A stretch of 64,000 nucleotides of DNA from NCBI RefSeq assembly GCF_014358075.1, contig NZ_JACONT010000007.1, positions 62,001-126,000 on the forward strand. The letters are read 5' to 3'. Source of the DNA: Sphingomonas albertensis (lineage in GTDB: Bacteria > Pseudomonadota > Alphaproteobacteria > Sphingomonadales > Sphingomonadaceae). The notes beneath the pieces were generated by a model. It ran no database searches, was not told where the DNA came from, and was given only the letters and a program-made list of their open reading frames with translations. The position numbers and the translations under genes are program-made. Of this stretch, positions 13,407 to 33,761 are shown piece by piece (the first letter of the stretch is position 1; every line of letters begins with the position of its first letter).

Positions 13407-13897
13407 TGCGGTCGTTGCTCGTCGCTGCGGTGGCGTTCGTTTCAGCCTCTGCCCTGCCCGCGCAGACCGCGACCGATCCGACGAGCTTTGCCGCATCGGC
13501 GGATGTTCGCGCACGGGTCGTTAAGCTCGAAAAGACGATGAAGCCGGGCCAGGGGTTCGCCATGGCTTCGCTGGTGGAGGCGGATGGGACAAGCGCCGCG
13601 CTCGAATATTGGAAGGCGCCGGGCAAGCCTGCGGTACACCCCGACGAGGCTGAATATGCGACGGTGATGGCGGGATCGGGGACGCTGGTCTCGGGCGGCA
13701 CGCTGGTCGCGCCGAAGCTGCGCTTTGCGGGGCTCGTCGAAGGTGACCGGATCGAGGGCGGGACGACGCGGAAGCTCGCGGTCGGGGACGTGTTCCTGAT
13801 CCCCGCGGGGGTGCCGCACTGGTTCGGCATTGACGGCAAGCTGGTCATGCTCGGGACGAAGATCAGGATGTCGGGTCAGCGGAAGCCCAGCCAGTAG
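13406..13897 (+). CDS. Periplasmic cupin-domain protein
   Basis: A 163-residue single-domain cupin. The ATG at 13406 overlaps the previous stop (TGATG), and the N-terminus MRSLLVAAVAFVSASALPAQ is a signal peptide. The two cupin motifs are seen as HPDEAEYATVMAGSG (about 74-88) and VFLIPAGVPHWF (about 131-142), giving candidate metal ligands His, Glu and His. Its role next to an exported sugar oxidoreductase and gluconokinase may be isomerase- or dioxygenase-like, but this is a guess. Its 3' end overlaps the convergent DUF979 gene by 22 bp. Confidence 0.82.
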   Translation: MRSLLVAAVAFVSASALPAQTATDPTSFAASADVRARVVKLEKTMKPGQGFAMASLVEADGTSAALEYWKAPGKPAVHPDEAEYATVMAGSGTLVSGGTLVAPKLRFAGLVEGDRIEGGTTRKLAVGDVFLIPAGVPHWFGIDGKLVMLGTKIRMSGQRKPSQ

Positions 13898-14817
13898 AGC
13901 AGGCCGATATTGACCGCGAGCAGCGGCAGCGCGGTCGGTATCTGCGCGCGGATGACGGCGTTCTTGTCCTTCAACTCGAGCAGCGCGGCGGGGACGAGAT
14001 TGAAGTTCGCCGCCATCGGCGTCATCAGCGTGCCGCAGAAGCCGCTGAGCATACCGATCGCGGCGACTACCGCCGGGTCGCCGCCGTAGTGGCGCACCAG
14101 CAGGGGGATGCCGATCGCCGCAGCCATGACGGGGAACGCCGCGAAGGCGTTGCCCATGACCATCGTGAACAGCGCCATGCCTAGCGTGTAGGCGAGGACT
14201 GCGCCGATCAGGCTGCCTTCGGGGATCGCGTGGCCGGCGAGCCCGCCGACGACGTCGCCGACGCCGGCCAACGCGAAGACCGCGCCGAGGCTCGCCAGCA
14301 TCTGCGGGAGGACGGCGGCCCAGCCGATCGCGTCCATCAGCCTGACGCCTTCCGCGAGCGGTGTCGCGATCCGGGGGCGGAACCAGAGCTGCATGGCGAC
14401 CAGCGCGATCAGGACGCCGCAGGTGAGTGCGACGAGCGTCGCCTGCTTCGGGTCGACGAGGCTAGGGACTGCGCGGAACAGGACGGTCCCGCCGAGTGCT
14501 GCGGCGGGGATGATCAGCGCGGGCAGGAATATACGGTTGCCGAGCCGTGCAGCTTCGGCGCGCCGTTCGCCGAGTGTGGTGGTGGCACGCCCGCCCCGCC
14601 CCATCGCACCCGATCCGGCAATCGCGACGAGGGCGAGGACGAGGACGCCGTTGCCGATGTCGCCCAGCTTTCCCCCTAGCAGGAAGCTGATCGCCAAAAC
14701 CGCGTAGAAGGCTCCGTTGCCGAAACGCTTCGGGTTGGTGCGGTCGGTCGCGCTCAGGATCGCGAACGCCGCGAACATCAGGCCGGCGACGCCGTAGATG
14801 AAGCCGGTGCCGATCAC
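13876..14817 (-). CDS. DUF979 family integral membrane protein
   Basis: A 313-residue, strongly hydrophobic protein with eight or more membrane helices, matching DUF979 in length and in segments such as FRPRIATPLAEG and MLSGFCGTLMTPMAANFN near the C-terminus. It starts at GTG 14817 and overlaps the stop of the DUF969 gene (GTGA), so the two subunits are translationally coupled. DUF969 and DUF979 proteins occur as a pair and are thought to form a transporter; the substrate is not established. The frame stays open upstream across the DUF969 gene, but that part is out of frame with the real partner and was excluded. Confidence 0.85.
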   Translation of the reverse strand: MIGTGFIYGVAGLMFAAFAILSATDRTNPKRFGNGAFYAVLAISFLLGGKLGDIGNGVLVLALVAIAGSGAMGRGGRATTTLGERRAEAARLGNRIFLPALIIPAAALGGTVLFRAVPSLVDPKQATLVALTCGVLIALVAMQLWFRPRIATPLAEGVRLMDAIGWAAVLPQMLASLGAVFALAGVGDVVGGLAGHAIPEGSLIGAVLAYTLGMALFTMVMGNAFAAFPVMAAAIGIPLLVRHYGGDPAVVAAIGMLSGFCGTLMTPMAANFNLVPAALLELKDKNAVIRAQIPTALPLLAVNIGLLYWLGFR

Positions 14818-15479
14818 TTGGCGGATCTCCGGGCGCGCCCCAGACGGCGATCGAGCAGCCAGAGGCGGAAGCCGTGGATCAGGAACGCGGCAATCGCGGT
14901 CGGGATCGCCCACATCGAGAGGTGGAGCGGCTGGATGACGATGCCGTAGCCCTCCAGCACGCCCTTCATCAGCAGGATCGAGCCGATCGCGATGAAGATG
15001 TCCTCGCCGAAGAACAGTCCGATGTTGTCGGTCGCCGCCGCCATTGCGGGGATGCGGTCGCCGCCGGGCGCGACGCCTTGCGCCTCGGCGGCGGCTTCGG
15101 CCATCGGGGCGACCAAAGGACGGACGCTCTGGGCCGGGCCGGCGATCGAGGTGAGGCCGAGTGCTGCGGTGAGTTGGCGGAACAGCAGATAGCCGATTAG
15201 CAGGCGCCCCACGGTCGCGCCCCTCAGCTTGGCGATAGCGAGGCGCGCACGTTCCTGAAGGCCGTGGCGTTCGAGCAGGCCGATCACCGGCAGGACGATG
15301 TAGATCACGGTAACGTAGCGGTTCTCGTTGAACGCCTTGCCGAACGCGGCGAGGATCGCGAGCGGTGCGATGCCGGCGGCCAGGCCAGTGACGAGCGCGG
15401 AGACGGCGACGACGAGCAGCGGATTGAACCGGAGCAGGAAGCCGGCGACGATCACCGCGATGCCGCACAGGACCAGCAT
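14814..15479 (-). CDS. DUF969 family integral membrane protein
   Basis: A 221-residue membrane protein with about five to six helices. The segment TDNIGLFFGEDIFIAIGS near residue 150 and PLHLSMWAIPTA near 185 are typical of DUF969. It is the first gene of a two-gene unit with DUF979 and is preceded by the metallo-beta-lactamase gene only 6 bp away, so all three may be co-transcribed. By analogy with paired membrane families it may form a permease for an organic acid or peptide derivative, which I cannot resolve from sequence. Confidence 0.85.
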   Translation of the reverse strand: MLVLCGIAVIVAGFLLRFNPLLVVAVSALVTGLAAGIAPLAILAAFGKAFNENRYVTVIYIVLPVIGLLERHGLQERARLAIAKLRGATVGRLLIGYLLFRQLTAALGLTSIAGPAQSVRPLVAPMAEAAAEAQGVAPGGDRIPAMAAATDNIGLFFGEDIFIAIGSILLMKGVLEGYGIVIQPLHLSMWAIPTAIAAFLIHGFRLWLLDRRLGRARRSAK

Positions 15480-15485
15480 CGCCGC

Positions 15486-16415
15486 TCAGCGTGCCTGCTT
15501 GGCGAGATCAGCGTCGAACGCGACCTTGGCCTTCGCGACAATCTTCGGGAGCAATGTGGGGTCGACGAACGCAGTGGTGTCACCGGCCTGGCGGCGCTTG
15601 CCGCGGGCGATTACATCGGCCAGTTCGGGATGCGACGGGAGGACGATGTCGGCGTGCAACGTGCCGAGCATCGCGATGCTGCGGCGGTAGTCGGCGACGA
15701 TGCAGGGATAGGCGCGGTTGCCGAGCAGGCGGTTGCCCGCGACGCTGACGCTGCACGGGAACACGACGTCGAGCGGGCGCGGCTTGGCGGGGATGCGCAT
15801 CGTCCAGGTCGTGCAGCCCGGCGTGTGCCCCGGTGTCGCGCGCGCGGTCAGCGTAGTGGTGCCGAGGGTCACCGTTTCGCCATCGCGTATGCCGCGATCG
15901 ACGTGCACTTTCGGGAAGCGGATGACGCCATAGTTGGTCTCGCCGGGCGGCGTACCGGTTTCGAGCGCGCGGACGTCGCGGATGCCGGCGACAACCCGCG
16001 CGCCGGTTGCACGCTTGAGCGCGGCTACACCCGCGGCGTGATCGAAATGGGCGTGGGTGACGAGGATCAGCTTCACGTCACGGGGGCGGACTCCGGCCTT
16101 GGCGATGTTGCGTTCGATCATCCCCGCATTCTGCGCGAGCGTGCCGTCGATCAGGATCGCGCCGGCGCTGGTCTTGATGAGGTAGGCGGCGATACCTTCG
16201 CTGCCGACATAGCTGATCGGGCCGGCGATCGGGAATGGCGCCTGTGGGCGCGTCCATGCGGGCGGGTCGGCCGCGCCCAGGAGGAGCGGTGCGCTGGCGG
16301 CGATCGCCAGTGCGCCGATCACCGACCGTGCGCGAGAGCTTAGCGATCCTCCCCCGCCAGGGGGAGGTGGCAGGCGTAGCCTGACGGAGGGGGCGGTAAG
16401 CGGTAACGTCTGCAT
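15486..16415 (-). CDS. Subclass B3-like metallo-beta-lactamase
   Basis: A 309-residue exported MBL-fold hydrolase. Zinc ligands are clear: HAHFDH at the HxHxDH position, the subclass B3 hallmark TPGHTPGCTTWTM, and LPSHPE supplying the last histidine. Family members hydrolyse beta-lactams with two zinc ions in the periplasm, though some do so weakly. I chose the ATG at 16415: GGAGG lies five bases before it. The resulting leader runs through a PPPPGGGG stretch encoded by a dispersed palindrome, then RARS and the hydrophobic core VIGALAIAASAPLLLG. A GTG at 16322 is a fallback start lacking positive charge. Activity is unproven. Confidence 0.85.
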   Translation of the reverse strand: MQTLPLTAPSVRLRLPPPPGGGGSLSSRARSVIGALAIAASAPLLLGAADPPAWTRPQAPFPIAGPISYVGSEGIAAYLIKTSAGAILIDGTLAQNAGMIERNIAKAGVRPRDVKLILVTHAHFDHAAGVAALKRATGARVVAGIRDVRALETGTPPGETNYGVIRFPKVHVDRGIRDGETVTLGTTTLTARATPGHTPGCTTWTMRIPAKPRPLDVVFPCSVSVAGNRLLGNRAYPCIVADYRRSIAMLGTLHADIVLPSHPELADVIARGKRRQAGDTTAFVDPTLLPKIVAKAKVAFDADLAKQAR

Positions 16416-16471
16416 CATTTCCTCCCCCTCCGACGCCTTTGGCGCCACCTCCCCCTTGCGGGGGAGGATCG
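16344..16471. repeat. GC-rich dispersed palindromic repeat, copy 2, overlapping the lactamase 5' end
   Basis: It begins CGATCCTCCCCCGC and ends GCGGGGGAGGATCG, perfect inverted ends matching the copy at 195-320, including CCCCCGCCAGGGGGAGG and a GACGGAGGGGG segment. Unlike copy 1 it reaches into a coding region: the Shine-Dalgarno, start codon and codons for the leader n-region of the metallo-beta-lactamase all lie inside it. Confidence 0.78.
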
Positions 16472-16489: not shown

Positions 16490-16507
16490 TTATTCCCACT
16501 CGATTGT
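16490..16507 (-). other. guaA 3'-end remnant, candidate attachment site of the island
   Basis: On the minus strand these 18 bases read ACA ATC GAG TGG GAA TAA, i.e. TIEWE-stop, the conserved C-terminus of GMP synthase (GuaA). The codons before it (TCC CGA) do not continue as GuaA, which normally has Pro-Gly or Pro-Ala there. An isolated guaA tail is what integration at the guaA 3' end leaves at the far side of an island. Chromosome lies to the left and the accessory DNA to the right. Confidence 0.62.
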
Positions 16508-16719
16508 TCGGGATCCTGTAAACATTTGAAATCACGCTCGAAAATACTTTTTCACCTATGACTACCGACCGCAGGGCCGTCGAATAACTACGCTTTTGAT
16601 TTCATCCGAGAATTTCGGTATTTTCTGAATAAGAACCTTTCGAAGACAATCGGCAGCGTAGTCCGTTCCTGACGGCCGCAACACGCCTGCCGATCTTAGC
16701 ACGTCTAGCTAGAAAGCGG
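16508..16719. other. AT-richer island-end region, no gene
   Basis: About 210 bp that are visibly richer in A and T than the flanks (runs such as GAAAATACTTTTTC and TCGGTATTTTCTGAAT). No convincing open frame. It lies directly inside the candidate attachment core, where integrase arm-type sites are normally found. Confidence 0.4.
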
Positions 16720-17397
16720 TCATGCTGTAGCAATCCAACCGCGGAAGCTGAAACCGGCATAGAAGAGCGCTACATCGGAAAAGCCTGCCTGGCGGAGCAG
16801 TGCTTCGTCCTCGTCTGAAGACAGGATTGGCAGGTGCGAGATCATCGTTTCTGCAGAAGCCGACGCTTTTGCCAGATCGTGGCCGGCCCGATCTGCGAAG
16901 GCAATCGAGCGCGTCAGCCACGGTTTCAGGTCGCTTCCAGCTGGGCAGCTATGGTGCGCGACAATGAGGGGGGCAGACGGCTTCAGCCGTCGGCGTATGG
17001 CTTGCAGCACTTCCAGCCGGCTTTTGCGGTCGCAGAAGTGAAGGGTGAGCAGGCATGTCGCCCCGTCGAAGGGCCCCTGTGGGGCGTCGTCGATATAGCC
17101 CTGCCGCAAGATGACGCGTGAGTGCAGCGGTCCGAGGATTTCCCGCGCCAAATCGAGCATTTCCGCCGAAGGATCGATGCCGGTGAACCGCCAATCCGGC
17201 TGGGCACCGGCGAAAGCCTTGAGTTCCAGACCGCCACCAGCACCGTAAACCAGAATGTCAGCCGCCCGTGGCGCGCGTTCCGCGAGCAGAAGCATGGCCA
17301 TGCGGTGGAGATCCGCATAGCCTGGCACCCTGCGCGGCGTATCTTCGGCATAGCTGGCGATAGCGGCCCGATCGGTAAAGAGACGTACTGTGTCCAT
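16720..17397 (-). CDS. Class I SAM-dependent methyltransferase
   Basis: A 225-residue cytosolic methyltransferase. Motif I is VYGAGGGLELKAF (about residues 50-62) and the following acidic motif is FTGIDPSAEMLDLAREIL. FDGATCLLTLHF matches motif IV and LKPSAPLIVAHHS motif V/VI. The acceptor is unknown. It is the third gene of a minus-strand unit with an Rrf2 regulator and a thioredoxin-reductase-like flavoenzyme; only 3 bp separate it from the latter. Its 3' end is the first gene inside the candidate island boundary. In related clusters such methyltransferases often act on xenobiotics or thiols, but nothing here proves that. Confidence 0.85.
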   Translation of the reverse strand: MDTVRLFTDRAAIASYAEDTPRRVPGYADLHRMAMLLLAERAPRAADILVYGAGGGLELKAFAGAQPDWRFTGIDPSAEMLDLAREILGPLHSRVILRQGYIDDAPQGPFDGATCLLTLHFCDRKSRLEVLQAIRRRLKPSAPLIVAHHSCPAGSDLKPWLTRSIAFADRAGHDLAKASASAETMISHLPILSSDEDEALLRQAGFSDVALFYAGFSFRGWIATA

Positions 17398-17400
17398 GGT

Positions 17401-18294
17401 TCAGCCGAACACGAGCGAGCGATGCGCCGACGTCCCTGCCGTCACCCCGTCCGCGACGGCCCAGCTGACGCTGTGCGGCATCCGGGCAATGTCACCCGCT
17501 GCGTATAGGCCCGGAACGGATGTCATCTTGTCACCATCGGTGTGGATGACGGGACCAAGTGGGCCGTCATCAATCTCTACGCCCAGTTGCTGTGCCAGCG
17601 GGCTTGTGAAACAGGAGCGCGGCGCAATGTAGAGAGCGGCAATTGCGCTGCGACGCCCGTCAGCCATCTCGATGGCGGAAAGGCCCAAACCTTCGCCGAT
17701 CAATCCTGCGACAGGTGCGGTCTCAACCTTAACACCACGCGCGTGGAGCGTTGCCCTTTCTCCTTCGGCCAGTTCTGCACCGTTTAGATACAGCGTCGTT
17801 GGCCCCCACTCGGCGATCAGGCTGGCCTGATGCACCGACATCGGTGTGCGGTAGAGCACGCCCAGTAGCTCGTCGCTGAACTCGATCCCGTGGCAGTAGG
17901 GGCAATGCAGCACTGTCTTGCCCCAGCGCTCCGGCAGGCCGGGAAGATCGGGCAGTTCGTCACGCATGCCGAACGCGAGGATCAGCTTGCGTGCCACGAT
18001 CTCTTCGCCGCCAGCAAGACGCACCGAGAAGCCATCCTCATGGATCCGCGCCACGCTTGCTTCAGCCTCGATCAGTTCCACGGTGGGATAGGCCAGAAGC
18101 TGCTTGCGCGCGGTTGCCAGAATATGGCGCGGATCACTGCCGTCGTGCCCGAGGAAGCCGTGGGAAGCATCGGCGAACCGGTTGCGGGGCTTGCCGGTGT
18201 CGACAACCCTGACGTTCCGGCGTGCCCGCGCCAAATAAGTTGCGGCCGCCAGCCCGGCAAAACCGCCGCCGACTATGATGGCATCATGCTTCAT
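17401..18294 (-). CDS. NAD(P)/FAD-dependent oxidoreductase, thioredoxin-reductase-like
   Basis: A 297-residue flavoprotein with the thioredoxin reductase fold. The FAD motif is [20 protein letters not shown] at the N-terminus. A redox-active CPYCHG occurs at about residue 135, where TrxB has CATC, and the closing FAD-binding [15 protein letters not shown] is near 265. The CPYC version is typical of the group that includes dithiol oxidases and small TrxB-like enzymes, so it may not reduce thioredoxin. The ATG at 18294 is inside the end of the Rrf2 gene, an 11-bp overlap that suggests translational coupling. An ATG two codons earlier (18300) is possible. Confidence 0.87.
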
Positions 18295-18748
18295 GCGCAT
18301 TCTCCAGAGTGACGGCTCCGCCAAGATCGGAAAGGCGGGCGTGAAAGTCCTCGCTCAGCTGCGCCAGCGTGATTTCTCCGAACCAGTTCAGGAGCAGCGC
18401 CTCGGCTTCGTCAAAAGCCTGGCCCAAGGCGGCATTGACGGTCTGCTCGACGAGGCATCCAGGTGCGTCTGTGCGATTGCCCATAGCCAGCATTTCCGGC
18501 CGGCCCAGCGCATCATAGATCTCGCGGAGCGTGACTGCCTCGAAGTCCGCGGCAATCGTCCAGCCACCGCCATGCCCCTTCTCTGAACTAACGAAGCCCT
18601 GGTCACGCAGGCCGGCCATGATCCGGCGCACCACCACCGGATTGGTGTTCATGGCGCGGGCAAGCGTTTCGGAAGTCTGGGGCCCGGGCTGTTCAGCCAT
18701 GTGCAGCAGCACGTGGAGGACACCGGATAATCGGCTATCTCGTCTCAT
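18284..18748 (-). CDS. Rrf2 family transcriptional regulator
   Basis: A 154-residue winged-helix regulator: [39 protein letters not shown] (recognition helix and wing at about residues 28-52) and [24 protein letters not shown], the Rrf2 signature. Rrf2 proteins such as IscR and NsrR hold an Fe-S cluster with three cysteines; here only one cysteine (APGCLVEQ) is visible, so cluster binding is unlikely and a single-thiol redox switch is more plausible. It heads the operon with the CPYC flavoenzyme and the methyltransferase and probably represses it. Confidence 0.87.
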
Positions 18749-18937
18749 GTAACTTCATATGATGCGTGATCACCTGCACGTCAATGGTCGTGCTAGACAA
18801 GTGTAGCGGCTTCGCACTGGTTTTCGCGTTCAGGAGTCATGGGACCGTCCTGCCCGCAATTGTCGGCGCAGTCGGTCTCATTGGACGTTAGCGCTGGATG
18901 TTTCGGCCATCGATCTGGCTCTTAACGCATCTGGACT

Positions 18938-19561
18938 CTAGCTTTTCACTGGCGAAGAGCTTCCAGGCCGTTTGTCGATCATGAAGAACGGCAAAGCGTG
19001 ATGGACCACCCAACCGATGCTGATTGCGTACAGGATCGTCCCAACTCCAACCGTGCCGCCCAGCATCCAGCCGATGCCTAGCACCGCCAGTTCTATCGCA
19101 GTGCGCACGAGCTTGATCGGTAGCCTCAGGCGCTGGCAAAGGCCGGTCATCAGGCCGTCGCGCGGACCGGGACCGAGTCCTGCACCGATATAAGCGCCGC
19201 CAGCTATACCGTTGAGCAGAATGCCGAGGCCGAGCAGCGCAATCCGCGGTGCATGACCTTCCGGCGCCGGCATCAATGCGAGCGCTATGTCGGTAACGGT
19301 CCCGATCACCACGATGTTGAGCACGGTGCCCAGTCCCGGCCTCTGTCGCAATGGCCACCATAGCACGAGGACGACGAGCCCAACCAAGTTGACCGTCTGT
19401 CCAAAGCTGAGGCCGATTCGTGGCGCAACCCCCTGGTGCAGCACGTCCCATGGGTCGAGACCCAAATTGGCGCGGACCAGCATGGCCATGGAAATGCCAT
19501 ACAGACTCAACCCACCGAGGAGTTGCACGAGGCGAGCGAAGAGGCGATCATGATCGAACAT
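18938..19561 (-). CDS. YczE/YitT-like integral membrane protein
   Basis: A 207-residue protein with about five membrane helices. The conserved YczE features are present: GISMAMLVRANLGLDPWDVLHQG (shown in outline) with the LGxxPWDVL core at about residue 32, and GAGLGPGPRDGLMTGL near 125. Function of the family is unknown; a transport role is assumed. It is divergent from a MocR-type regulator with 61 bp between the start codons. That gene pairing is described for YczR/YczE in several phyla and supports the call. Confidence 0.85.
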   Translation of the reverse strand: MFDHDRLFARLVQLLGGLSLYGISMAMLVRANLGLDPWDVLHQGVAPRIGLSFGQTVNLVGLVVLVLWWPLRQRPGLGTVLNIVVIGTVTDIALALMPAPEGHAPRIALLGLGILLNGIAGGAYIGAGLGPGPRDGLMTGLCQRLRLPIKLVRTAIELAVLGIGWMLGGTVGVGTILYAISIGWVVHHALPFFMIDKRPGSSSPVKS

Positions 19562-19576
19562 GGCGCCAGATGAGCT

Positions 19577-19605
19577 AAAGTGGCGCCGTTACAAATATCC
19601 ACTTT
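19577..19605. promoter_or_regulatory. Inverted repeat in the YczE/MocR divergent promoter
   Basis: AAAGTGG (19577-19583) and CCACTTT (19599-19605) are perfect inverted copies with a 15-base spacer; a further TAGTGGCC lies at 19611-19618. The repeat occupies the centre of the 61-bp region between two divergent starts, the place where MocR/YczR proteins bind. The assignment as operator is inferred from position and symmetry. Confidence 0.5.
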
Positions 19606-19622
19606 GGTGATAGTGGCCTCTA

Positions 19623-21083
19623 ATGCTTCCGATCCGTCTTAGTTCTGGCTCCCTTTCACGCCTTCTCGGCCATTGGCGAGGAGAGGACACGCGGGAGGCA
19701 GCCTACCACTTGCTCGCGCGGGCGCTACGATTGCTGATTGTGGACGGTCGGATCGGACTGGGCGTGCGGCTCCCGGGGGAGCGCGAGCTTGCGCACGCGC
19801 TCGGTGTCAGCCGGACAACTTTGACGGCCGCTTATGGGCAGCTGCGAGAGGATGGCTATCTCCTGAGCCGACGAGGATCGGGGAGCGTCACGCAGCTCCC
19901 CGGCGGTCGCGATGCCGCCGTGGAGGCGGATGACAACGAAGGGGAAAATCCGTTCATCGACTGGACAGCGGCCGCCGTGCCTGCACCGGCCGGACTCTGG
20001 GAAGCTTATGAAGAAGCGTTGCGGCAGCTTCCCGCCTGGCTCTCGGGCATCGGCTATGAGGCCTTGGGTCTCCCCTGCCTACGAGAGGCGATCGCACGCG
20101 ACTATGAAAGACGCGGCTGTCCAACCCGGCCCGAGCAGATCATCGTGACGAGCGGCGCCCAAAATGGGCTCACGCTCGTCTTGCGTGCGCTGGCGGGACC
20201 CGGTGATCGCATCGCAGTCGATCATCCCACCTATCACAACGCCTTGGGCGCAATCTCGCGCAACTATTGCCAGCCGGTGCCGATCAGTCTCCCCGAAACG
20301 GGTTGGGATTTCGAAGCCCTGGATGCGGTTTTCCGTCAAGCCGGCCCCCGCTTTGCTTACCTGCTACCGGACTTTCACAACCCCACGGGACGGTTGATGG
20401 ACGAACCGGGGCGGCGGGAGTTGGTCTCAATCGCAGCGCGGACGCGGACGCCGTTGCTGATCGACGAAACTATGGTGGAAACGGGATTGGGAGCCACTGC
20501 GCCCGCACCAGTCGCGGCGCACGATCCCGACGGAGATATGATCATCAGCCTGGGCTCGGCGAGCAAACGTTACTGGGGCGGCCTGCGCATTGGATGGATT
20601 CGCGCGAGCGAGCAGCGCATCGCCGAGTTTGGCCGTCTGCGCGCAATCCTGGACATGGCGACGCCCGTGTTGGAGCAACTCGCCGTAACAGTGATGCTGA
20701 ACAGGGATCGCCGGACGGACGACCAACGCTCTCTCATGCGAGCGCGTTGCGACCGGCTGATCGCACTGCTTGCCGAGGCGTTGCCACATTGGCGCGCGTC
20801 TGTACCCGAGGGCGGACTGGCCCTTTGGGCGGAGCTGCCGCGCCCTGACGCATCTGCGCTCGCGGCAATGGCGCAAAGCCTGGGCGTGCGAATTGCTGCA
20901 GGACCGCGCTTCGCGGTCGACGGTGGGTTCGAGCGCTTCGTACGCCTGCCTTTCACCCTGACTGAGCCTGATCTGCAGCGCGCGGTACAGCGGCTCGCAC
21001 AAGCTGACCGGAGCCTGCATCGTCGAGCCGCGCGTGGCTTCGACAGCCCATTGTTGGCCGTGGAGGCGGACCGCATGATCTAA
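19623..21083 (+). CDS. MocR-type (GntR wHTH plus aminotransferase-fold) PLP-dependent regulator
   Basis: A 486-residue chimeric regulator. Residues 1-90 form a GntR winged helix (LGVRLPGERELAHALGVSRT then LREDGYLLSRRGSGS). From about residue 130 a class I aminotransferase fold follows, with the PLP lysine in GSASKRYWGGLRIGW near 315 and FHNPTGRLM near 245. Such proteins bind PLP and act as activators or repressors of a neighbouring gene. It is divergent from the YczE-type membrane gene and so fits the YczR subgroup. Confidence 0.9.
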   Translation: MLPIRLSSGSLSRLLGHWRGEDTREAAYHLLARALRLLIVDGRIGLGVRLPGERELAHALGVSRTTLTAAYGQLREDGYLLSRRGSGSVTQLPGGRDAAVEADDNEGENPFIDWTAAAVPAPAGLWEAYEEALRQLPAWLSGIGYEALGLPCLREAIARDYERRGCPTRPEQIIVTSGAQNGLTLVLRALAGPGDRIAVDHPTYHNALGAISRNYCQPVPISLPETGWDFEALDAVFRQAGPRFAYLLPDFHNPTGRLMDEPGRRELVSIAARTRTPLLIDETMVETGLGATAPAPVAAHDPDGDMIISLGSASKRYWGGLRIGWIRASEQRIAEFGRLRAILDMATPVLEQLAVTVMLNRDRRTDDQRSLMRARCDRLIALLAEALPHWRASVPEGGLALWAELPRPDASALAAMAQSLGVRIAAGPRFAVDGGFERFVRLPFTLTEPDLQRAVQRLAQADRSLHRRAARGFDSPLLAVEADRMI

Positions 21084-21273
21084 CGCGTGCGCGCCGAGAT
21101 CGCACGGCCCGCTGCGGGACCTTCGGAGAACTTCAGACCTTCCGGAACTCTAGACTTTCGAAAACTGGTTGGCCACGACGGGCGCACCGCTGTTGCGCGC
21201 CGCGCTCGCTTCGACGGAGACCTCCGTGTCCCTCCGGTAAGACCCAGGCTCCAGGAGCTGGCATATACGTGAC

Positions 21274-21298
21274 GGGCGGTGGGGGTCCCTCACCGCCC
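21274..21298 (+). terminator. Hairpin downstream of the MocR gene
   Basis: GGGCGGTG and CACCGCCC form an 8-bp stem with a nine-base loop, placed between the MocR gene (ends 21083) and the convergent MBL gene (ends 21354). No U-run follows, so factor-independent termination is uncertain. The rest of the 270-bp gap shows no gene. Confidence 0.45.
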
Positions 21299-21353
21299 GA
21301 TGCGAACATAGACCTTCATTGCGCAGTTAGCGGAAGAAATATCGACGCCGGTC

Positions 21354-22235
21354 TCACTCGCCCAGCGCCGCGAGGCGTTTGAGAGCGATGGGCTCTTGAC
21401 TGTCCGCCAGCATCCATGACGCGTACTCACCCCAATCCGCAACGGTTCCCGGCGATGCGTTTCGCAGACGACGGGCTTCCGAGCGGATGTGCGTTATGGC
21501 CGCGCGAAAGGCCTGCATCTCTTCACGCGACCGCTCGGGGCCGTCCACAAACCCGTGTCCCGGAATATAAAGGTGGGCCTTGAGCTCGAGCGCGCGCTGC
21601 AGGCTGGCTTCCCACTCTTTAGGGAACGCAGATCGCATCGGAGGGAACACCCGGTTCATGAAAACCTCGCTCATGAAGACCAGGTTCTGGTCCGGGACGC
21701 GCACGACCAGATCCGATGCGGTGTGGGCACGGCCGAGAAACAGGATATCCACCGCCCGATCGCCCAGATCAATAGACTTGACTTCCCCGATCGCACGCGG
21801 TCCGGTCTCGACCTTTCGGCCGCCGCTCCTGATCTGTGAGAGGCCATCGGGATGGACTACAAGTACGGTGTTCGCCGGGAGTGCTTCGGTCCCGCCGGTA
21901 TGATCCTCATGAACCGAACCGACCACCATCCACCGGACAGGCTTTTCGGTCACCGTGGCGACGGCCGCCAGCAGCGCCCGTGTCGCATCCGGCGATTCCT
22001 GGCCGTCGGCAATGAGCACGCCGTCAGAGCCCACGACGATCATGGATACTGTCGTGAAACCCGGCGCCCTCAGCGCTTCATAGGCATAGACGCTGCCCCC
22101 CAACGGCACGAGCCGGGGGAAGTCGGCAATACTGAGACCCCGCTCTACCGGGAAAGCGGTGCGGACCTGCGCATCTGCGGGAGACGACAAGCTGACAAGC
22201 ACGGTGGCGAGGGTTAAGGCAAGAAGTCGAAACAT
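21354..22235 (-). CDS. Exported MBL-fold hydrolase with an altered metal motif
   Basis: A 293-residue MBL-fold protein with a signal peptide (MFRLLALTLATVLVSLSSPADAQ in outline, cleavage after ADAQ). The usual HxHxDH motif appears as SVHEDHTGG, so the first zinc histidine is serine; later ligands GRAHTASD and IPGHGFVD are intact. It might bind one metal only or use a different ligand. It is divergent from a LysR regulator, beyond which a second MBL-fold gene lies. The substrate is unknown; the hydrolase architecture resembles periplasmic lactonase or lactamase relatives. Confidence 0.8.
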   Translation of the reverse strand: MFRLLALTLATVLVSLSSPADAQVRTAFPVERGLSIADFPRLVPLGGSVYAYEALRAPGFTTVSMIVVGSDGVLIADGQESPDATRALLAAVATVTEKPVRWMVVGSVHEDHTGGTEALPANTVLVVHPDGLSQIRSGGRKVETGPRAIGEVKSIDLGDRAVDILFLGRAHTASDLVVRVPDQNLVFMSEVFMNRVFPPMRSAFPKEWEASLQRALELKAHLYIPGHGFVDGPERSREEMQAFRAAITHIRSEARRLRNASPGTVADWGEYASWMLADSQEPIALKRLAALGE

Positions 22236-22321
22236 CAGGAGAGCTTCCTTTTGCGAAGTTGCATCAGACCGGGCGACGCAGGTTCGGGGCGCGATCGGGA
22301 GGTTCGTCAGGCATATGCCCG

Positions 22322-23233
22322 ATGAGTGATCCGGATCTGGACACCGGACTCCTGCGGGCTTTCGAGGCCTTGTACGCCCACCGGAATGTGACGCGGGCCG
22401 CCGAACAGCTTGGCATCGGCCAACCCGCCCTCTCCGCCCGGCTGACGCGGCTGCGCACCCTGTTCGGCGATACGTTGTTCACGCCATCGAGCACCGGGCG
22501 AGGCGTCGTTCCGACCGCGCGGGCGGATCAACTCGATCCGGGCGTCCGCGACCTGATCACGCGACTGGCTCGCCTCGGCGAGCCAGTGACGTTCGAGCCG
22601 ACGACGAGCGAGCGCACCTTCCGGCTGGCGCTCTACGAGAATCCCGCGGTCATGCTGATCCCGGATCTGGTCCGCAGGCTTCAGTCGACGGGTCCACACA
22701 TCCGGATCGCTGTGATCGCTCCGGATCCCGAGCGGATGTCCGAGGGCATGGAAGACGGCTCGATCGACATGTTTGTCGGATCGGGAAGGACGTCCAGCCT
22801 GTGGCTCAGCAGGACCCTTTTCGAAGAGCAATTCGTCGTCGCCCAGCGAGCCGGTCATCCGCGCGGCCGGGGGCCGCTTACGCTCGACGAATATTGTGCG
22901 CTGGATCACGTCCTCATCTCCGCTGAAGGCGGCGGCTTTTCCGGTCTCGTCGATGACACGCTGGCCATGACGAACCGGCGCCGGCGAGTGACCGTGTCGG
23001 TGCAAACCTACGCTTTGGCGCCGCTGATCGTCGCCAACAGCGACTGCCTGTGCACTCTTCCGCGCCGTTTCCTCGCGAAATATGCCGCCGCCATCGAGGT
23101 CATGGAGCCGCCGTTTGCGCTCAATGCCATCGGTCTCACCGCCTTCTGGCACCCCCGGCATCAGGAAGACGAGGGCCATGCCTGGTTGCGGGGGCAGATG
23201 TTCGCCGCCGCCCAGGAGCAGGGGCGAAGCTGA
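22322..23233 (+). CDS. LysR family transcriptional regulator
   Basis: A 303-residue regulator. The N-terminal wHTH is LLRAFEALYAHRNVTRAAEQLG... with LSARLTRLRTLFGDTLF, the helix region and wing at about residues 9-55. The C-terminal part is the periplasmic-binding-like effector domain, with the segment DMFVGSGR near 165. ATG at 22322 was preferred to an upstream in-frame start at 22259 because the protein then begins as other LysR proteins do. It stands between two minus-strand MBL genes, divergent from the first, so it probably regulates that one. Confidence 0.87.
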   Translation: MSDPDLDTGLLRAFEALYAHRNVTRAAEQLGIGQPALSARLTRLRTLFGDTLFTPSSTGRGVVPTARADQLDPGVRDLITRLARLGEPVTFEPTTSERTFRLALYENPAVMLIPDLVRRLQSTGPHIRIAVIAPDPERMSEGMEDGSIDMFVGSGRTSSLWLSRTLFEEQFVVAQRAGHPRGRGPLTLDEYCALDHVLISAEGGGFSGLVDDTLAMTNRRRRVTVSVQTYALAPLIVANSDCLCTLPRRFLAKYAAAIEVMEPPFALNAIGLTAFWHPRHQEDEGHAWLRGQMFAAAQEQGRS

Positions 23234-23252
23234 TGCCCGCCCCACTCCGCCC

Positions 23253-24218
23253 TCAGTCCCGGTCGACATATTCGGCCGGAACCCAGGCGTAGCCGTCCTT
23301 ATCCCGTCGGACGTGCCCGATACCGGGAAACGGCAGATGGGGCGCGGCAACGAGTGTGCGCTCTCGCGCGAACAGGTCGAACGCAGTCCGACGTACGGCA
23401 CTCGCCTGGTCCGGGACGACGTCGTAGACGATGGTCACGCCAGGGCGCGGAAACTGGACTGAGCTTACGTGCAGGGTGTCACCGATGAAGACCATGGCGT
23501 CCTTGCCGCTGCGCACAGTGAAGAACGCGGCCCCGGGCGTATGACCGGGATGTATAGCCGCAGTGATGCCCGGCAGGATTTCCTCGCCGTTTTCGAATGT
23601 CTTCAGCCGCCCTTGTGCCAGATACGGCCGAAGCGCTGTTTCTGCTTCGCTGAAATAGTGGTCCGCATAGCCCCGCCGTTCCGTGCCTTGCGCCCCGAGA
23701 AAGAAGTTGACGTCCGGCTTGCCGACGTGGATCACGGCGTTCGGGAAAACTGGATTCCCCTTGACCACGAGCCCGCCGGAATGGTCAGAATGTACATGGG
23801 TGATCAGGACGTGGCGGATCTGCGATGGGTCGACGCCGGCGACCGCCAGGCTGTGGACGAGCCGACCGCCATAGCCCGGACCGAACACTTCGCCTGCCCC
23901 GGCGTCGATCAGCACTAGACCCTCATGGGTTTCGAGCAGAAACGCGTTGATGGACGCTTCGACAGGGTTTTTTAGAAATGCTCTACCAAGCAGCTTGTCG
24001 ACTTCCTGCGGTGTGATCCCCAGCAGCAACTTGTGGAGGTCCTGCGGGACGGTTCCGTCGGACAAAGCCGTAACGCGCAGGTCTCCGAACCTGAATCGCT
24101 GAATGTCACCCGCCTGAGGTGCAGTAGACAGCGGGCGATTGGCCGTTTGAGCGATAGCGGGTGTGGATGTGATCGATAGGAGAAAGACGGCAGCGAAGAC
24201 AGTAGCGGTTCGGGTCAT
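23253..24218 (-). CDS. Exported MBL-fold metallo-hydrolase, lactonase-like
   Basis: A 321-residue MBL-fold hydrolase with a signal peptide (MTRTATVFAAVFLLSITSTPAIAQ in outline). The complete dinuclear motif THVHSDHSGG is at about residue 140, followed by HPGHTPGAAFF, GDTLHVSS and PHLPFPGIGH. This pattern is shared with the AHL-lactonase-like group (AidC/YtnP-type), so a quorum-signal or other lactone is a reasonable but unproven substrate. It converges on the LysR gene with 19 bp between. Confidence 0.85.
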   Translation of the reverse strand: MTRTATVFAAVFLLSITSTPAIAQTANRPLSTAPQAGDIQRFRFGDLRVTALSDGTVPQDLHKLLLGITPQEVDKLLGRAFLKNPVEASINAFLLETHEGLVLIDAGAGEVFGPGYGGRLVHSLAVAGVDPSQIRHVLITHVHSDHSGGLVVKGNPVFPNAVIHVGKPDVNFFLGAQGTERRGYADHYFSEAETALRPYLAQGRLKTFENGEEILPGITAAIHPGHTPGAAFFTVRSGKDAMVFIGDTLHVSSVQFPRPGVTIVYDVVPDQASAVRRTAFDLFARERTLVAAPHLPFPGIGHVRRDKDGYAWVPAEYVDRD

Positions 24219-24369
24219 CTAAAAAACTCTTCGATAATTGAAGAACCACAACTGGGAACATCAACTCGGAGTTTGAAATCGAAACCGACAATCGCCGCCA
24301 TCAGCCCGGTTGATCACAACCGCAGGACTATGATGCTGATCGACTCACGGTGCCCTCGAGCCAATGGCA

Positions 24370-24558
24370 TCCAGTCCTCCATCCCGCTTCAAACTCTCCA
24401 ACGAACGGGTTGGATACGACAAGTGCCGGTGTAGCCGCACACGCGTCGAGATCATGTTAGATCGTCTGAATGATGCGCGCCGCGTCGCCACTCGCTACTG
24501 TCGGTGCCAACCATCTTCTTGCCATCCCCTGGCTGCCACCGTCATCTTTCGGCTATGA
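24370..24558 (+). pseudogene. IS5-family transposase C-terminal remnant
   Basis: The translated stretch contains NERVGYDKCRCSRTRVEIML, DRLNDARRVATRYCRC and LAATVIFRL, which match the C-terminal end of IS5-family transposases (RIEIMFGRLKDWRRVATRYDRCP...LAATVIFWL). Between TRYCRC and LAATV the match jumps frame: PTIFL is found in another frame, so compensating indels are present. The N-terminal two thirds and the terminal inverted repeats are missing. It is an inactive fossil. Confidence 0.72.
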
Positions 24559-25021
24559 CCGATGAGTCTTGGTCCTGGGCCGAAGCCGGCGTTCGGCTAG
24601 ACGGTCTGCAGCGGCTCCGGTCGGCAAACCTTCGGCATGCGCCAAGTTCAGTACCTTCGTCGTCGTCTGCCGGACCCCTCTCGACGCGCTTCAGCGCGTT
24701 TGAGCGGTCGAACCGTTTGCCACGCTCGCCCACGGAAAGGACGCCGCCAGCATTCACCACGTAATCCGGGCAGTATGTAATGCCACGCTCCTGAAGACGG
24801 GCGTCCTGCCTCGGGTCGCTGAGCTGATTGTTGGCAGCGCCAGCGATGACGCTTGCTCTGATTACCGGGATGGTCCGAGGATTGAGGACAGCGTCCAAGG
24901 CGCACGGTGAATAAACATCGCCTCCGCGACCATATGCCGACCCAGCGCCGACTGTTGCGGCCTTCTGCAGCATTCGCGCGACACGCGCCGGACAGCCGGC
25001 CAGGCCGACCTGCGTGGTCAT
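24553..25021 (-). pseudogene. Broken leucine/Glu-Leu-Phe-Val dehydrogenase-like gene
   Basis: On the minus strand, from an ATG at 25021, VGLAGCPARVARMLQKA resembles the Rossmann loop, then GGDVYSPCALDAVLN, VIAGAANNQL and ITYCPDYVVNAGGVLSV are the conserved C-terminal region of leucine dehydrogenase. The last part continues only after a frameshift, in another frame, as AHAEGLPTGAAADRLAERR before the TAG at 24553. The N-terminal substrate domain and the segment after the Rossmann loop are missing. The gene cannot make a working enzyme. Confidence 0.72.
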
Positions 25022-25483
25022 TGCGCGCCGTTTCTTCTTAACACTAGGAAGTGAGCTCGCCACTCGATGTGATCAACGGTGTTGCGCATCCAGCCGTCAG
25101 GCAGCGCATCGGTCGAACAGCAAGGCCGCGCCGTTGCGCCTGCCACGCATTGTACGATGCATCATGTCATCCTAAAGTTCCGACAGCGAGGACCCTTCGC
25201 GCGGAGTGACGAACCGAGCGGGAATGAATCGGAAAGGGGAATTCGTTGATGTCGAGGGTCCCAGCTTACGCGGTGCGATCGATCTGCGCCTTGCGAACAG
25301 GTGTGTCCGACCTGATGGACATGATCTATATTGGGATGGTGGGCATGGGCGCAGACTCCTTACCCCGTTACGACACCGGCGCGGCGCTGCGGCTTCACTG
25401 TAAAATACCGGCAAGTACAGGTCTGACGCGGCGCAACGCGGATCGGCGGGCGCATGGTGTCGGCGTGCGACTGCGGATGCCGA
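25022..25483. other. Intergenic region before the sigma-factor gene
   Basis: About 460 bp between the pseudogene and the FecI-type sigma gene. Open frames such as 25246-25494 (plus) show no recognisable domain and no ribosome binding site. It should carry the promoter for the sigma/anti-sigma/receptor operon; I cannot point to a box with confidence. Confidence 0.35.
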
Positions 25484-26050
25484 ATGTCGAATAGTGGACT
25501 TCTTGGAATTCTCGCTGAAACGCGCGAGGCCTTGCTGCGCTTTCTTCAGTTACGCGGCGCGTCTTTGGCCGACGCCGAAGACATCCTTCAGGAGGTGCAC
25601 TTGAAACTGCTGGCCCAAAGTCTAGGGCCGGTCACGGAGCCGCGCGCCTATCTGTATAAAATGGCCAGTAACGGTTTTTCGCTGTCTCGTCGCACCGCCG
25701 ACCGTCGCGCGCGCCGCGAAGACGATTGGGCGGGGGTCCATGGGGGCAATGACGCGGAAGTGAACAATCGGCCCACGATCGAGACCGCCCTCATTGCCCG
25801 TGAGCAGCTTGCTATCTTGCAGCGGGTTCTGGATGGGCTACCGGAACGCACGCGGATGATTTTCAAGCGCTTTCGGATCGATGGCGAGACGCAACGCGGG
25901 ATAGCTGAGGATCTCGGGATCAGCGTGAGCGCGGTGGAGAAGCATCTCGCGCGAGCCTATGCGGAAATCGCGACCGCAAAGCTGCGCCTTGATGCGGATA
26001 GTATCGTTCCCCGGCATCTCAACGTCCAAAGAGGGCGTCATGGCAACTGA
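25484..26050 (+). CDS. FecI-type ECF RNA polymerase sigma factor
   Basis: A 188-residue extracytoplasmic-function sigma factor. Region 2 is seen in RGASLADAEDILQEVHLKLL (about residues 23-43) and the -10 binding PRAYLYKMASNGF; region 4 is LPERTRMIFKRFRIDGETQRGIAEDLGISVSAVEKHL in outline, near residues 118-155, with the helix-turn-helix GIAEDLGISVSAVEKHL. It would direct RNA polymerase to the downstream receptor genes. It is co-transcribed with fecR-like and receptor genes: the next start is 11 bp inside its own 3' end. The ATG at 25484 has only a weak Shine-Dalgarno. Confidence 0.88.
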   Translation: MSNSGLLGILAETREALLRFLQLRGASLADAEDILQEVHLKLLAQSLGPVTEPRAYLYKMASNGFSLSRRTADRRARREDDWAGVHGGNDAEVNNRPTIETALIAREQLAILQRVLDGLPERTRMIFKRFRIDGETQRGIAEDLGISVSAVEKHLARAYAEIATAKLRLDADSIVPRHLNVQRGRHGN

Positions 26051-27005
26051 GGCACAGGACATCATTCAGGCGCGCGCCATCGAATGGCACATTCGTCTTC
26101 GTAACGGAGGTGACGATGCCTGGGAGGACTTCGCCGCTTGGCTGGCCGAAGATCCGCAACACGCGGAGGCCTATGATGCGATCGAGCGTGTAGATCATGC
26201 CATCGAACCGCTGCTGCCCGACCTGGTTTTCCGTGAAGCTGCGAATGACAGTGACGAACTCGCCACACCGCTATCGCGTCCGACGCGCCGCTGGTTTCTG
26301 AGCGGAGGAGCGCTAGCGGCGGCGATTGTCGCGGCGTTCGCGCTCGGGCCGTCGCTGATATCGAGCCGTTACAACGTGGTAACCGGGCCGGGCGAGCGCC
26401 GGACCGTCGCGCTTGATCCCGGTACGCAGGTCGTGATGAATGGATCGACGCGCATGACTTTCGATAGCAAGGACGCGCGCTTTGCCGAGTTGGCGCAGGG
26501 CGAGGCGTTGTTCCGAATTCGCCATGACAGCGTACATCCGTTCGTGCTCAAGCTCGGCGAAAACCGTGTCGAAGACGCAGGAACAGTGTTCAATGTCGTG
26601 CGGAGCCCAAGCGAAGTGCGGGTCGCCGTGGCGGAAGGCAAGGTGATCTACAATCCCGATCGCGACCGGATCGTACTCGATCCCGGGCAGGTGCTGGCGG
26701 ACCGAGATGGCTCCACTCGCATTCGCGTCACGCGCGTGCCCGTTCAGGGAGTCGGATCTTGGGAGAAGGGAGGGCTCAGCTACACGGGAGACCCCATGTC
26801 GCAGGTTGCGGGCGATCTGTCGCGGGCGCTCGGCGTGCGCATCATCGTGGCGCCGTCTGTTACGGACCGCCCCTTCTCGGGATCGATTGTTCTCAATGGG
26901 AAAGGACCCGAACAGGTTAGGCGCCTCGAACGTGCCCTGAACGTGCGACTGGAACAAGGGCCCGAGGGCTGGACAATGAAGCCTGCGGACGGTGCGGGGC
27001 GTTAG
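26040..27005 (+). CDS. FecR-type anti-sigma/transmembrane regulator
   Basis: A 321-residue inner-membrane protein. The cytoplasmic N-terminus has the FecR motif EWHIRLRNGGDDAWEDFAAWL and DPQHAEAYDAIE at residues 15-55, a single membrane helix follows at about residues 85-103 (GGALAAAIVAAFALGP), and the periplasmic FecR domain contains VTGPGERRTVALDPGTQV. Family members carry the receptor's signal to the ECF sigma factor. It overlaps the sigma gene by 11 bp and the receptor gene by 14 bp, as in FecIRA-type operons. Confidence 0.88.
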   Translation: MATEAQDIIQARAIEWHIRLRNGGDDAWEDFAAWLAEDPQHAEAYDAIERVDHAIEPLLPDLVFREAANDSDELATPLSRPTRRWFLSGGALAAAIVAAFALGPSLISSRYNVVTGPGERRTVALDPGTQVVMNGSTRMTFDSKDARFAELAQGEALFRIRHDSVHPFVLKLGENRVEDAGTVFNVVRSPSEVRVAVAEGKVIYNPDRDRIVLDPGQVLADRDGSTRIRVTRVPVQGVGSWEKGGLSYTGDPMSQVAGDLSRALGVRIIVAPSVTDRPFSGSIVLNGKGPEQVRRLERALNVRLEQGPEGWTMKPADGAGR

Positions 27006-29349: not shown

Positions 29350-29392
29350 GTAAGCCGTCGTGAAAAATGCGATGAGCGTCGTGGATCGGGCG

Positions 29393-29410
29393 CTCCGCGT
29401 GACCGCGGAG
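29393..29410 (+). terminator. Strong hairpin downstream of the STN receptor
   Basis: CTCCGCG and CGCGGAG form a perfect 7-bp stem with the four-base loop TGAC, 44 bp after the receptor stop. A T-containing stretch (CTTTGG) follows rather than a full U-run. It lies before the next gene, whose Shine-Dalgarno AGGAG is at 29521-29525. Confidence 0.45.
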
Positions 29411-29534
29411 GCTCGCTTTGGTTCGCAGGGCCGGCGTCACGCAATTCTTTGGTGGTTGGAGAGTTTGCTCCGCATTTTTTTGATGAGGTTGTGTTCGATC
29501 GTCGGTGTCTCAGGGCTGAAAGGAGAAAGCCCTG

Positions 29535-29981
29535 ATGTCCGATCAAGCGCTCACGAACATCGAACTGGTAGTGATCGGACTCGCCCGCGCCGACCCAGTT
29601 TCCAGCTGTGTGCCGCGTCGCAGTCTCGTCCGGCGGATCTTCGGGGGGCACGTCCACCAGCCGCTCGCAGCGCCGCGGCTCGAGGCACTGCGACGTTACG
29701 CGATACTTCGTCGCGTGCATGGTGCCGCCTTGGCCGAGGCGGAGCACGTAAAGTTGCGTCTGGCTGGCTTCGACGATCCGCAGATAAGTGAAATCAACCG
29801 CCTGGTTAGCGAACAGGATCCCGCGGAGGCTGCTTCGCACAAGTGCACGCCTGTCCCGTACGAGCATTCCGAGGTGCGTAACCGCGCCCCCGATCCAGCG
29901 ATTGCCTCCAAGGCACCCATAGCCGGGCGCATCACCCGCGCACCGGTCGATATCCTCGACCCCCAAGAAGCGAGCAAAGTA
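29535..29981 (+). other. Small-protein domain in frame with, and upstream of, a MipA gene
   Basis: An ATG at 29535 with AGGAG nine bases before it opens a frame that has no stop before the MipA signal peptide at 29982. Its first ~95 residues carry IELVVIGLARADP, PLAAPRLEALRRYAILRR and FDDPQISEINRLV. The same domain is encoded at 34401-34691 beside the other MipA gene in this window. Residues about 96-149 are low in similarity to it. Either the frame makes a fusion with an internal signal peptide, which would be odd, or two proteins are made from overlapping starts. I list it separately for that reason. Confidence 0.55.
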
Positions 29982-30785
29982 ATGCGATATTCTTCTATTA
30001 AATATGCTTCTCCACTTGCGCCAATCGCGCTTCTAGTCGCTGTCTCCTCGCCCACCGTTGTACAAGCGCAGGACAGTTACGGCTCCAACGTTGCCAGGGA
30101 AGCGACTTCCGACAACCATATCACCATCGGGATCGGCGGCGCGGCGCTTCCGGAATTCCAAGGCTCGAAAGATTATTTCATCCAACCGCTTCCTGTGGTG
30201 GACATTAAACAGGGACATTTCTTCCTGCGCCTTGGCGACGGCATCGGCGTCAATGTGGTCGACACTCCCGAATTTCAGGCCGGTTTCAGCATTACCCCGG
30301 TGCGCGGCTATGACGCCGACAAGGTCCCCAAGGGCGTTGGCAAGCTTGGCACCAGTATCGGTGGGCGCGGATTCGTTTCAGGGACTGTTGGCGGTTTCGT
30401 GGGGACGCTGGCTGTCACCGCCCCATTCACCGGCGACGCTAAAGGCATGTTCGTGGACGGAGAAATCAGCTACCCGGTGCGTGTCACCGATCGGCTTCTC
30501 GTTGTTCCCGGCGTTCGTGCCACATGGGCGGACAAGAAATATCTGACCAGTTATTTCGGGGTGAACGCCCAACAGGCAGCGGCTTCTGGTCTTCCCCAGT
30601 ACAAGCCCTCGAGCGGTCTTCAGGACGTGGGCGCCACGCTGGCGGTCAAATATCGTCTGACGGATCATATTAGCTTTGTCGGTTCCGCGCTGATGACGCG
30701 CAACCTTGACCGCGTCATGGACAGCCCGTTCACCGAACGCCGCTGGCAGCCGGTCGGAATTCTAGGCGTGGCGTACACTTTCTGA
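29982..30785 (+). CDS. MipA/OmpV family outer-membrane protein
   Basis: A 267-residue outer-membrane protein. The ATG at 29982 begins a signal peptide (MRYSSIKYASPLAPIALLVA, cleaved near VVQAQ). The MipA/OmpV domain follows with GIGGAALPEFQGSKDYFIQP, LGDGIGVNVV and the C-terminal beta strand ending GVAYTF. MipA scaffolds murein synthases; OmpV-like proteins also bind host or environmental ligands, so the role here is uncertain. The ribosome binding site at this ATG is weak and the frame is open upstream to 29535, so translation may be coupled to the small domain ahead. It lies after the FecIRA-like operon. Confidence 0.82.
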   Translation: MRYSSIKYASPLAPIALLVAVSSPTVVQAQDSYGSNVAREATSDNHITIGIGGAALPEFQGSKDYFIQPLPVVDIKQGHFFLRLGDGIGVNVVDTPEFQAGFSITPVRGYDADKVPKGVGKLGTSIGGRGFVSGTVGGFVGTLAVTAPFTGDAKGMFVDGEISYPVRVTDRLLVVPGVRATWADKKYLTSYFGVNAQQAAASGLPQYKPSSGLQDVGATLAVKYRLTDHISFVGSALMTRNLDRVMDSPFTERRWQPVGILGVAYTF

Positions 30786-31163
30786 CAGGAGGGAAAGAAG
30801 GGGTGCCTTCTGACCCCGTGAAAACCGTCGTGCGTCGTAGCCGCGCAGCACTTGCGCGGCGATCGCCGCATCGCCGGCTTCTGTTCGCGTGCCCGAAGGC
30901 ACTCCCATTATGGTGGGTGACGCTATGGTTGATTGGCTTGGTCATTCTCATCAGAGTCGGTGTCTTCGCGGCAAAGGAAACGGGTTCCGTGCTCATCGGC
31001 TTGATGAGCAGCTGCATGACTTTCCTTGTGGCGGCTTCCATCTGGTCATCGCTCACCTCGCGACGCTGATAGCCCGGGGAGTTACGATACCCCCTCTGAC
31101 CTCGACAACGCTCAGGCTGCTGGTGGTACTAGTGATGTTCACGCTCCACCGACAATCGGGAAA
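30786..31163. other. Intergenic region between MipA and TetR genes
   Basis: About 380 bp. A GTG-started frame at 30803-31069 (plus) would encode 88 residues with a hydrophobic stretch (LWWVTLWLIGLVILIRVGVF), which could be a small membrane protein. It lacks a good Shine-Dalgarno and I recognise no family, so I do not call it a gene. Other frames here look like noise. Confidence 0.3.
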
Positions 31164-33750: not shown

Positions 33751-33761
33751 TCGAACCTCCA

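Follow-up and report, generated by a model that had tools for sequence, protein, structure and literature searches.

A stray guaA 3' end as the very probable attachment site of a large integrated element in Sphingomonas albertensis

The 3' ends of guaA genes are established integration targets (PMC9376610, PMC7775301, PMC8627217, PMC9973854), and guaA islands have been described by Song et al. (2012), as cited in PMC7775301. According to the available text of these sources, GIsul2 lies at the guaA 3' end with the core GAGTGGGA, and its integrase-driven excision and integration have been shown (PMC9376610). ICERspD18B of Rheinheimera, a 28.5-kb ICE encoding an integrase, a relaxase, a T4SS and replication or partitioning proteins, was transferred into the 3' end of guaA of E. 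coli, a transfer that was demonstrated (PMC7775301). The backbone of the Mesorhizobium rlxS-trb ICEs (ICEMlSymR7A-like) is described as comprising trbBCDEJLFGI, traG, rlxS, traF, an excisionase gene and DUF736; the non-symbiosis ICEs of that genus carry a Rep initiator too, some ICEs are located at guaA, and the phylogeny of the backbone is not strictly tied to the site of integration (PMC8627217). Tripartite ICEs, in which three regions are joined by three integrases (IntS, IntM and IntG), include a guaA-specific enzyme, IntG (PMC9973854).

The window analyzed here, a stretch of 64,000 nucleotides, corresponds to C69:62001-126000 in a draft genome that comprises 4.05 Mb and 80 contigs. From 16507 down to 16490, its minus strand encodes T I E W E followed by a stop (ACAATCGAGTGGGAATAA), beginning with ACA and ending with TAA. 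The features at this boundary, together with the integrase found on a second contig, C2, are as follows.

13876..15479, minus strand: DUF979 gene and its neighbor, chromosomal flank downstream of the lactamase gene, conserved in siblings
15486..16448, minus strand: subclass B3 metallo-beta-lactamase gene, with the likely start inside the longest ORF (15486-16322 scanned)
16490..16507, minus strand: TIEWE-stop, with TAA read as the ancestral guaA stop and ACA as element derived; the sibling empty site reads guaA...ATCGAGTGGGAATAAgctag
16492..16504, minus strand: attR crossover interval, 13 bp ATCGAGTGGGAAT, holding the published guaA-island core GAGTGGGA
16505..16579, minus strand: element-side arm of attR, 75 bp
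C2:35716-36972: tyrosine integrase of 418 aa, ~295 bp after guaA, with arm-binding, central and catalytic domains

A whole-genome search with a GMP synthase C-terminal model found one guaA, on C2, and no guaA gene behind the TIEWE-stop of the window, confirming the earlier note's reading of 16490-16507 as an orphan gene end. That note had also expected an intact guaA followed by a tyrosine integrase farther to the right; both were found, on C2 rather than on C69, because C69 ends 5.6 kb past the window. The degenerate 15-mer core ATCGANTGGGANTRA has exactly two copies in the 4.05-Mb genome, while the reversed control of this pattern has none. One copy is the end of the intact guaA (C2:35407-35421, plus strand), the other lies at C69:78490-78504 on the minus strand (window 16490-16504), and their orientation relative to each other is that predicted for the ends of an element. 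The two guaA 3' ends align over the core as direct repeats of ATCGAGTGGGAAT, with GAGTGGGA within them, at C2:35407-35419 and C69:78492-78504. The bases just outside differ as expected, with ACG preceding the core at guaA and ACA preceding that of the window; what is duplicated from guaA is the 13-bp repeat, and the threonine codon ACA belongs to the element arm, outside the duplication. When 11 attR arms of guaA elements are compared, the window's own arm among them, 16 positions are identical in at least nine; the window arm matches 12 of these.

In all five siblings fetched (G058, G024, G127, G018 and G061), the C2 genes upstream of guaA, guaA itself, the lactamase gene and the next C69 genes are contiguous, so that guaA directly adjoins the lactamase gene with no element between them, as had been anticipated. 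No ICE backbone genes were matched in 40 kb of each sibling, and the sole match to a C2 element gene, in G061, was a TonB-receptor paralogue of 32% identity. Where the same 18 bp occur beside the same neighbors without an island, they are simply the end of a whole guaA, that is, attB. Since the sibling empty site is contiguous, the window core is assigned as the attR of an element in guaA: we consider it very probable that 16492-16504 is the attR of an ICE integrated into the chromosome at the 3' end of guaA. The earlier note had called this core the far attachment site of a conjugative element, a proposal now supported by the two cores and the empty site. The stray guaA end would be the footprint of a large inserted DNA element, one that is probably self-transferring. 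Integration at a tRNA gene was rejected as an explanation, the 64-kb window containing no tRNA gene.

The flank to the left of the core is chromosomal. The lactamase gene scored 312.9 bits against NF033105 (cut-off 240), and in 13/13 genomes whose copy is at least 84% identical, it follows guaA within 1 kb on the same strand. The spacing is within ~65 bp in 11 of these and ~980 bp in G070 and G034. Since this gene is conserved beside guaA in relatives, it is intrinsic and not carried by the element. Repeats of the CCTCCCCC type, which are probably the dispersed palindromes seen by the earlier reader, occur at 2.74 and 9.68 per 10 kb in the chromosome parts of C69 and C2, respectively, and at 0 and 0.39 per 10 kb in the corresponding element parts.

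The sibling comparison also bears on the guaA stop codon. In G058, the 48 bases after the core are those of the window except for one, and the original chromosomal continuation past the core is TAAGCTAG... It follows that the ancestral guaA stop was TAA, despite the TGA present in the sibling G092, that the TGA now terminating the intact guaA on C2 was brought by the element, and that the crossover fell within the 13 bp ATCGAGTGGGAAT (16492-16504). Judged from these sequences, guaA ended in TAA before the integration and in TGA after it. By analogy with known families, the integrase would recombine the attP of the element with attB at the guaA end, inside the 13-bp identity. The element would thereby resupply the last guaA codons together with a TGA in place of the ancestral TAA, and the original tail of guaA would be carried to the far end of the element; the guaA protein sequence would be kept because the last codons and the stop are resupplied. 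Joining the left half of attR to the right half of attL gives ACAATCGAGTGGGAATGATT as the inferred attP.

To the right of the core, the window contains the trb conjugative element that the earlier note had recognized. Gene calls came from simple ORF scoring, and family scans (Pfam/NCBIfam for the window cargo) cover part of the C2 genes.

16508..64000, no strand: element DNA in the window, running on to C69:131623, 5,623 bp beyond the window, and then presumably to C2
16720..45544, no strand: cargo between attR and the trb operon, ~29 kb
45532..55172, minus strand: trb mating-pair-formation operon, with TrbI, TrbL and TrbE assigned by family model
56111..58087, minus strand: TraG coupling protein (NF010450, 1197.4 bits, cut-off 674)
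58284..59981, minus strand: PLD-domain protein of 565 aa between traG and rlxS
60091..61845, minus strand: RlxS-like relaxase (NF041267 best match, 555 bits, below the cut-off of 850)
63206..63760, minus strand: TraF-like peptidase (TIGR02771, 82.5 bits, below the cut-off of 100.25)

TrbE and TrbL scored over their curated cut-offs, the TrbI match is below its own, and the remaining trb gene names in this operon are presumed from synteny. The relaxase is the only match in the source genome and is 41-74% identical to relaxases found at the same position in the ICEs compared. C69 also encodes ParA (NF041546, 272.5 bits, over the curated cut-off), RepA (RPA PF10134, 290 bits) and, near its end, a DUF736 gene (101 bits). 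The element carries traG, an RlxS-like relaxase, TraF, ParA, RepA and the trb operon, and so is predicted to be an ICE. When the trb region was used to query a plasmid collection, no place covering 80% was found, and 122 records gave partial matches. traG and rlxS are adjacent in the ICE of G046, and several kilobases separate them in G140 and G048; this gap may be a cargo hot spot, perhaps for defense genes.

The ~29-kb cargo encodes a methyltransferase, a thioredoxin-reductase-like protein, Rrf2 and MocR-like regulators, two metallohydrolases, a sigma factor/FecR/TonB receptor set, two MipA proteins, an FAD monooxygenase, RND efflux genes, AraC, an alcohol dehydrogenase and LysR. At 21354-24218, a LysR gene is flanked by the two metallohydrolase genes, the second of which resembles AidB-type quorum-quenching lactonases (183 bits, below the cut-off of 360). 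The FAD-dependent monooxygenase (PRK06184 family, 713.8 bits, cut-off 476) and the RND efflux genes lie at 32230-41579. On C2, the integrase is followed by ~74 kb of cargo, including GGDEF/EAL proteins, an M48 peptidase, MFS and Na+/H+ transporters, an ABC system with DUF3526, TonB receptors, a resolvase-domain protein (C2:98108-98698) and, at the far end, an AbiEi/AbiEii pair (L070:15843-17362, C2:108843-110362). The guaA ICEs of G091 and G113 contain homologues of this pair, likewise on that side of the backbone.

The element would thus comprise C2 beyond guaA and C69 to the right of 16490, a join that we infer from conserved gene order and that gives a length of 76,327 + 53,134 = 129,461 bp plus a short gap (~129.5 kb). 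The order would be guaA, the integrase, ~74 kb of cargo with the AbiE pair at its far end and a DUF932-like gene, followed by DUF736, an excisionase-like gene, RepA, ParA, TraF, RlxS, TraG, trbB-I, ~29 kb of cargo and attR. The ends of the two contigs share no 20-mer, and a small piece is likely missing between them. The last C2 gene (C2:110870-111697, plus strand), which we take to be DUF932-like although NCBIfam gives only a weak TIGR03299 match, is 87% identical over 276/279 residues to a gene of the G046 ICE; there, this gene and the homologue of the last C69 gene point the same way, 310 bp apart. The same gene order results from the tail-to-tail join of C2 and C69 that attL and attR require. 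A homologue of the last C2 gene was found in G046 and in none of the other relatives searched, including G248, and direct evidence for the join comes from this one relative. A single contig of G248 carries guaA, the integrase, cargo, a homologue of the C69-end gene, DUF736, RepA, ParA, RlxS, TraG, trb and a second core; this ~91-kb element has the order and strand of the source element, minus the last C2 gene.

The integrase belongs to a clade that is tied to guaA. Among the matches listed, integrases of at least 57% identity occur at 13 places in 12/151 same-genus genomes, the source genome included, and other full-length same-genus matches are at most 36% identical. Eleven of the 13 places are ~300 bp after guaA; the remaining two are an integrase 11.5 kb from guaA in G144 and a second copy 70 kb along in G096. 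G073 retains an integrase fragment beside guaA (82% identical over 87 residues). In a family-wide sample, the integrase was matched at E values up to 1e-100 in 33/397 genomes, and the core lies 286-318 bp before it in 28 of the 30 genomes searched for a core; G262 and G157 have partial integrase matches only, with the core 301 and 782 bp, respectively, before the matched part. KPPxTIEWE is found just upstream of the integrase at 75/80 named genome loci. As for the others, L241 reads PGTIEWE despite being cut by a contig end, the sequences of L187 and L224 begin too near the integrase, L230 has unrelated sequence upstream, and L175 has a TIEWE core without guaA before it, as at a tandem junction. 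Tandem elements at guaA are suggested in G113 (L156-L160), G096 (L161-L164), G144 (L269-L270) and G349 (L280-L282), the signs being att cores in excess of two, an additional integrase or a distance of 11.5 kb between guaA and the integrase. In G487 (C1:2027626-2173391), the 146 kb between two cores hold an integrase and a TrbE interrupted by two in-frame stops, possibly a larger, decaying guaA ICE.

Such tandems bear on whether C2 and C69 belong together. An integrase island on C2 and a separate trb ICE on C69 could stand side by side at guaA, with the middle core undetected at the contig break, and the window core would still be attR. The gene at the end of C2 argues against this, since in G046 it belongs to the ICE backbone, beside the homologue of the C69-end gene, and G248 has the same order on one contig. 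Moreover, no second tyrosine integrase was found on C69 or on C2 beyond guaA, and no third core in the draft genome, matches inside the joined element being chance-like ones with two mismatches. Weighing on the other side the suggested tandems of G113, G096, G144 and G349, the position of the contig break inside the element and the finding of the contig-linking gene in one relative only (G046), we regard a tandem arrangement as distinctly unlikely. The version in which C69 holds a separate ICE with its own integrase was rejected, as no tyrosine integrase was found on C69.

It is less probable again, to the point of being very doubtful, that the region is one part of a tripartite ICE, with the guaA site (IntG) as one of three integration sites. 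The guaA core is present at both ends, whereas tripartite regions would have other bounding sites; the halves are joined by conserved gene order, the element has one full integrase, and complete one-piece relatives exist. These points are set against the use of guaA and the rlxS/trb/DUF736 backbones reported for Mesorhizobium tripartite ICEs in the available text of PMC8627217 and PMC9973854, and against the further integrase genes on other contigs of the source genome. We attach almost no probability to an element-free origin of the 18 bp, whether by chance or as what is left of a duplicated guaA. The sequence is short, but a chance match is excluded by the two core copies in 4.05 Mb and the zero for the reversed control; the sibling empty site refutes this explanation, and the attR arm is partly conserved.

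For the reading as a single ICE at guaA, relatives provide complete elements with two bounding cores on one contig. Weighing against it are the contig break at the C2-C69 join, the rarer backbone orientation of the source element, the tRNA-Lys site of the G046 ICE and the sub-cut-off scores of TrbI, RlxS and TraF. The guaA ICEs differ in how the backbone is placed. The source element has its conjugation genes pointing away from the integrase, the less common layout, found in 3/15 of the guaA ICEs scored: TrbE is on the integrase strand in the source element, G248 and G349, versus the opposite strand in 12. In six of the latter (G107, G091, G113, G096, G140 and G048), gene-by-gene comparison places the trb operon on the integrase side, pointing to the integrase, and the coordinates of the integrase, TrbE and cores show the same for G151, G188, G202, G433, G487 and G157. 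The count was drawn from 42 genomes; in the others no TrbE could be assigned to the stretch from the integrase to the following core or the end of the contig. It leaves out G233 because its TrbE is beyond the second core, and it includes G151 with no second core found, TrbE in pieces in G202 and G157, the TrbE with two stops of G487 and a G349 TrbE just 61% identical to that of the source. At 20/80 of the named loci, trb genes lie no farther than 10 kb from the integrase and in every case on the strand opposite to it, in a 10-kb view that is blind to elements with long cargo after the integrase and may in part duplicate the genomes already counted. The idea that the inverted backbone is unique to the source element was dropped, G248 and G349 being arranged likewise. 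Inversion via repeats near the element ends was also considered; the joined element has no exact inverted repeat longer than 17 bp, and none that is convincing.

The backbone of the G046 ICE, the closest among those compared gene by gene, is located at tRNA-Lys with the integrase on the trb side, and thus the recombination module and the backbone appear to have been exchanged independently, in line with the loose association of backbone and site in Mesorhizobium, as far as described in PMC8627217. It is conceivable, and we advance this tentatively as a possibility short of the probable, that the occurrence of the integrase/att module with the rlxS-trb backbone in both orientations reflects a portable recombination module that was repeatedly inverted or independently captured, the long cargo here having built up on both sides of the backbone.

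The analysis accounts for a fragment that could be mistaken for a damaged housekeeping gene, places one end of a large mobile element to within 13 bp and connects two contigs of the draft genome. ICE biology gains a large guaA ICE and a group of relatives that combine related integrases with related backbones in two orientations, which allows module exchange to be followed on a tree.

Integration at guaA, this core and this backbone have already been published, and the element is a further example of them. ICERspD18B, a gammaproteobacterial element, shares the guaA target, and its 20-bp direct repeat as described, ACAATNGAGTGGGAATNNTT, fits the inferred attP ACAATCGAGTGGGAATGATT; it differs in being 28.5 kb long with demonstrated transfer, versus ~129.5 kb for the element described here, known from sequence alone. 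GIsul2 is likewise at the guaA 3' end with the core GAGTGGGA; unlike the present element, it is ~15 kb long, and a complete conjugation set is not described for it in the available text of PMC9376610. Integrases 57% identical to that of the source element are found on enterobacterial and Acinetobacter plasmids. The Mesorhizobium rlxS-trb ICEs, as far as they are described, have the same backbone set, the relaxase here being RlxS-like, and in some cases the guaA site, but belong to another genus and carry other cargo. Among the ICEs compared gene by gene, that of G046, from the same genus, has the closest backbone (TrbE 84%, RlxS 74%) but is flanked by a 24-bp repeat at its tRNA-Lys site and has a different integrase. 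The guaA ICEs of G107, G091, G113 and G096 (same genus) and of G248 (same family) are alike in integrase clade, site and backbone; in the first four the backbone is the opposite way round to that of the source element, whereas G248 has the source orientation.
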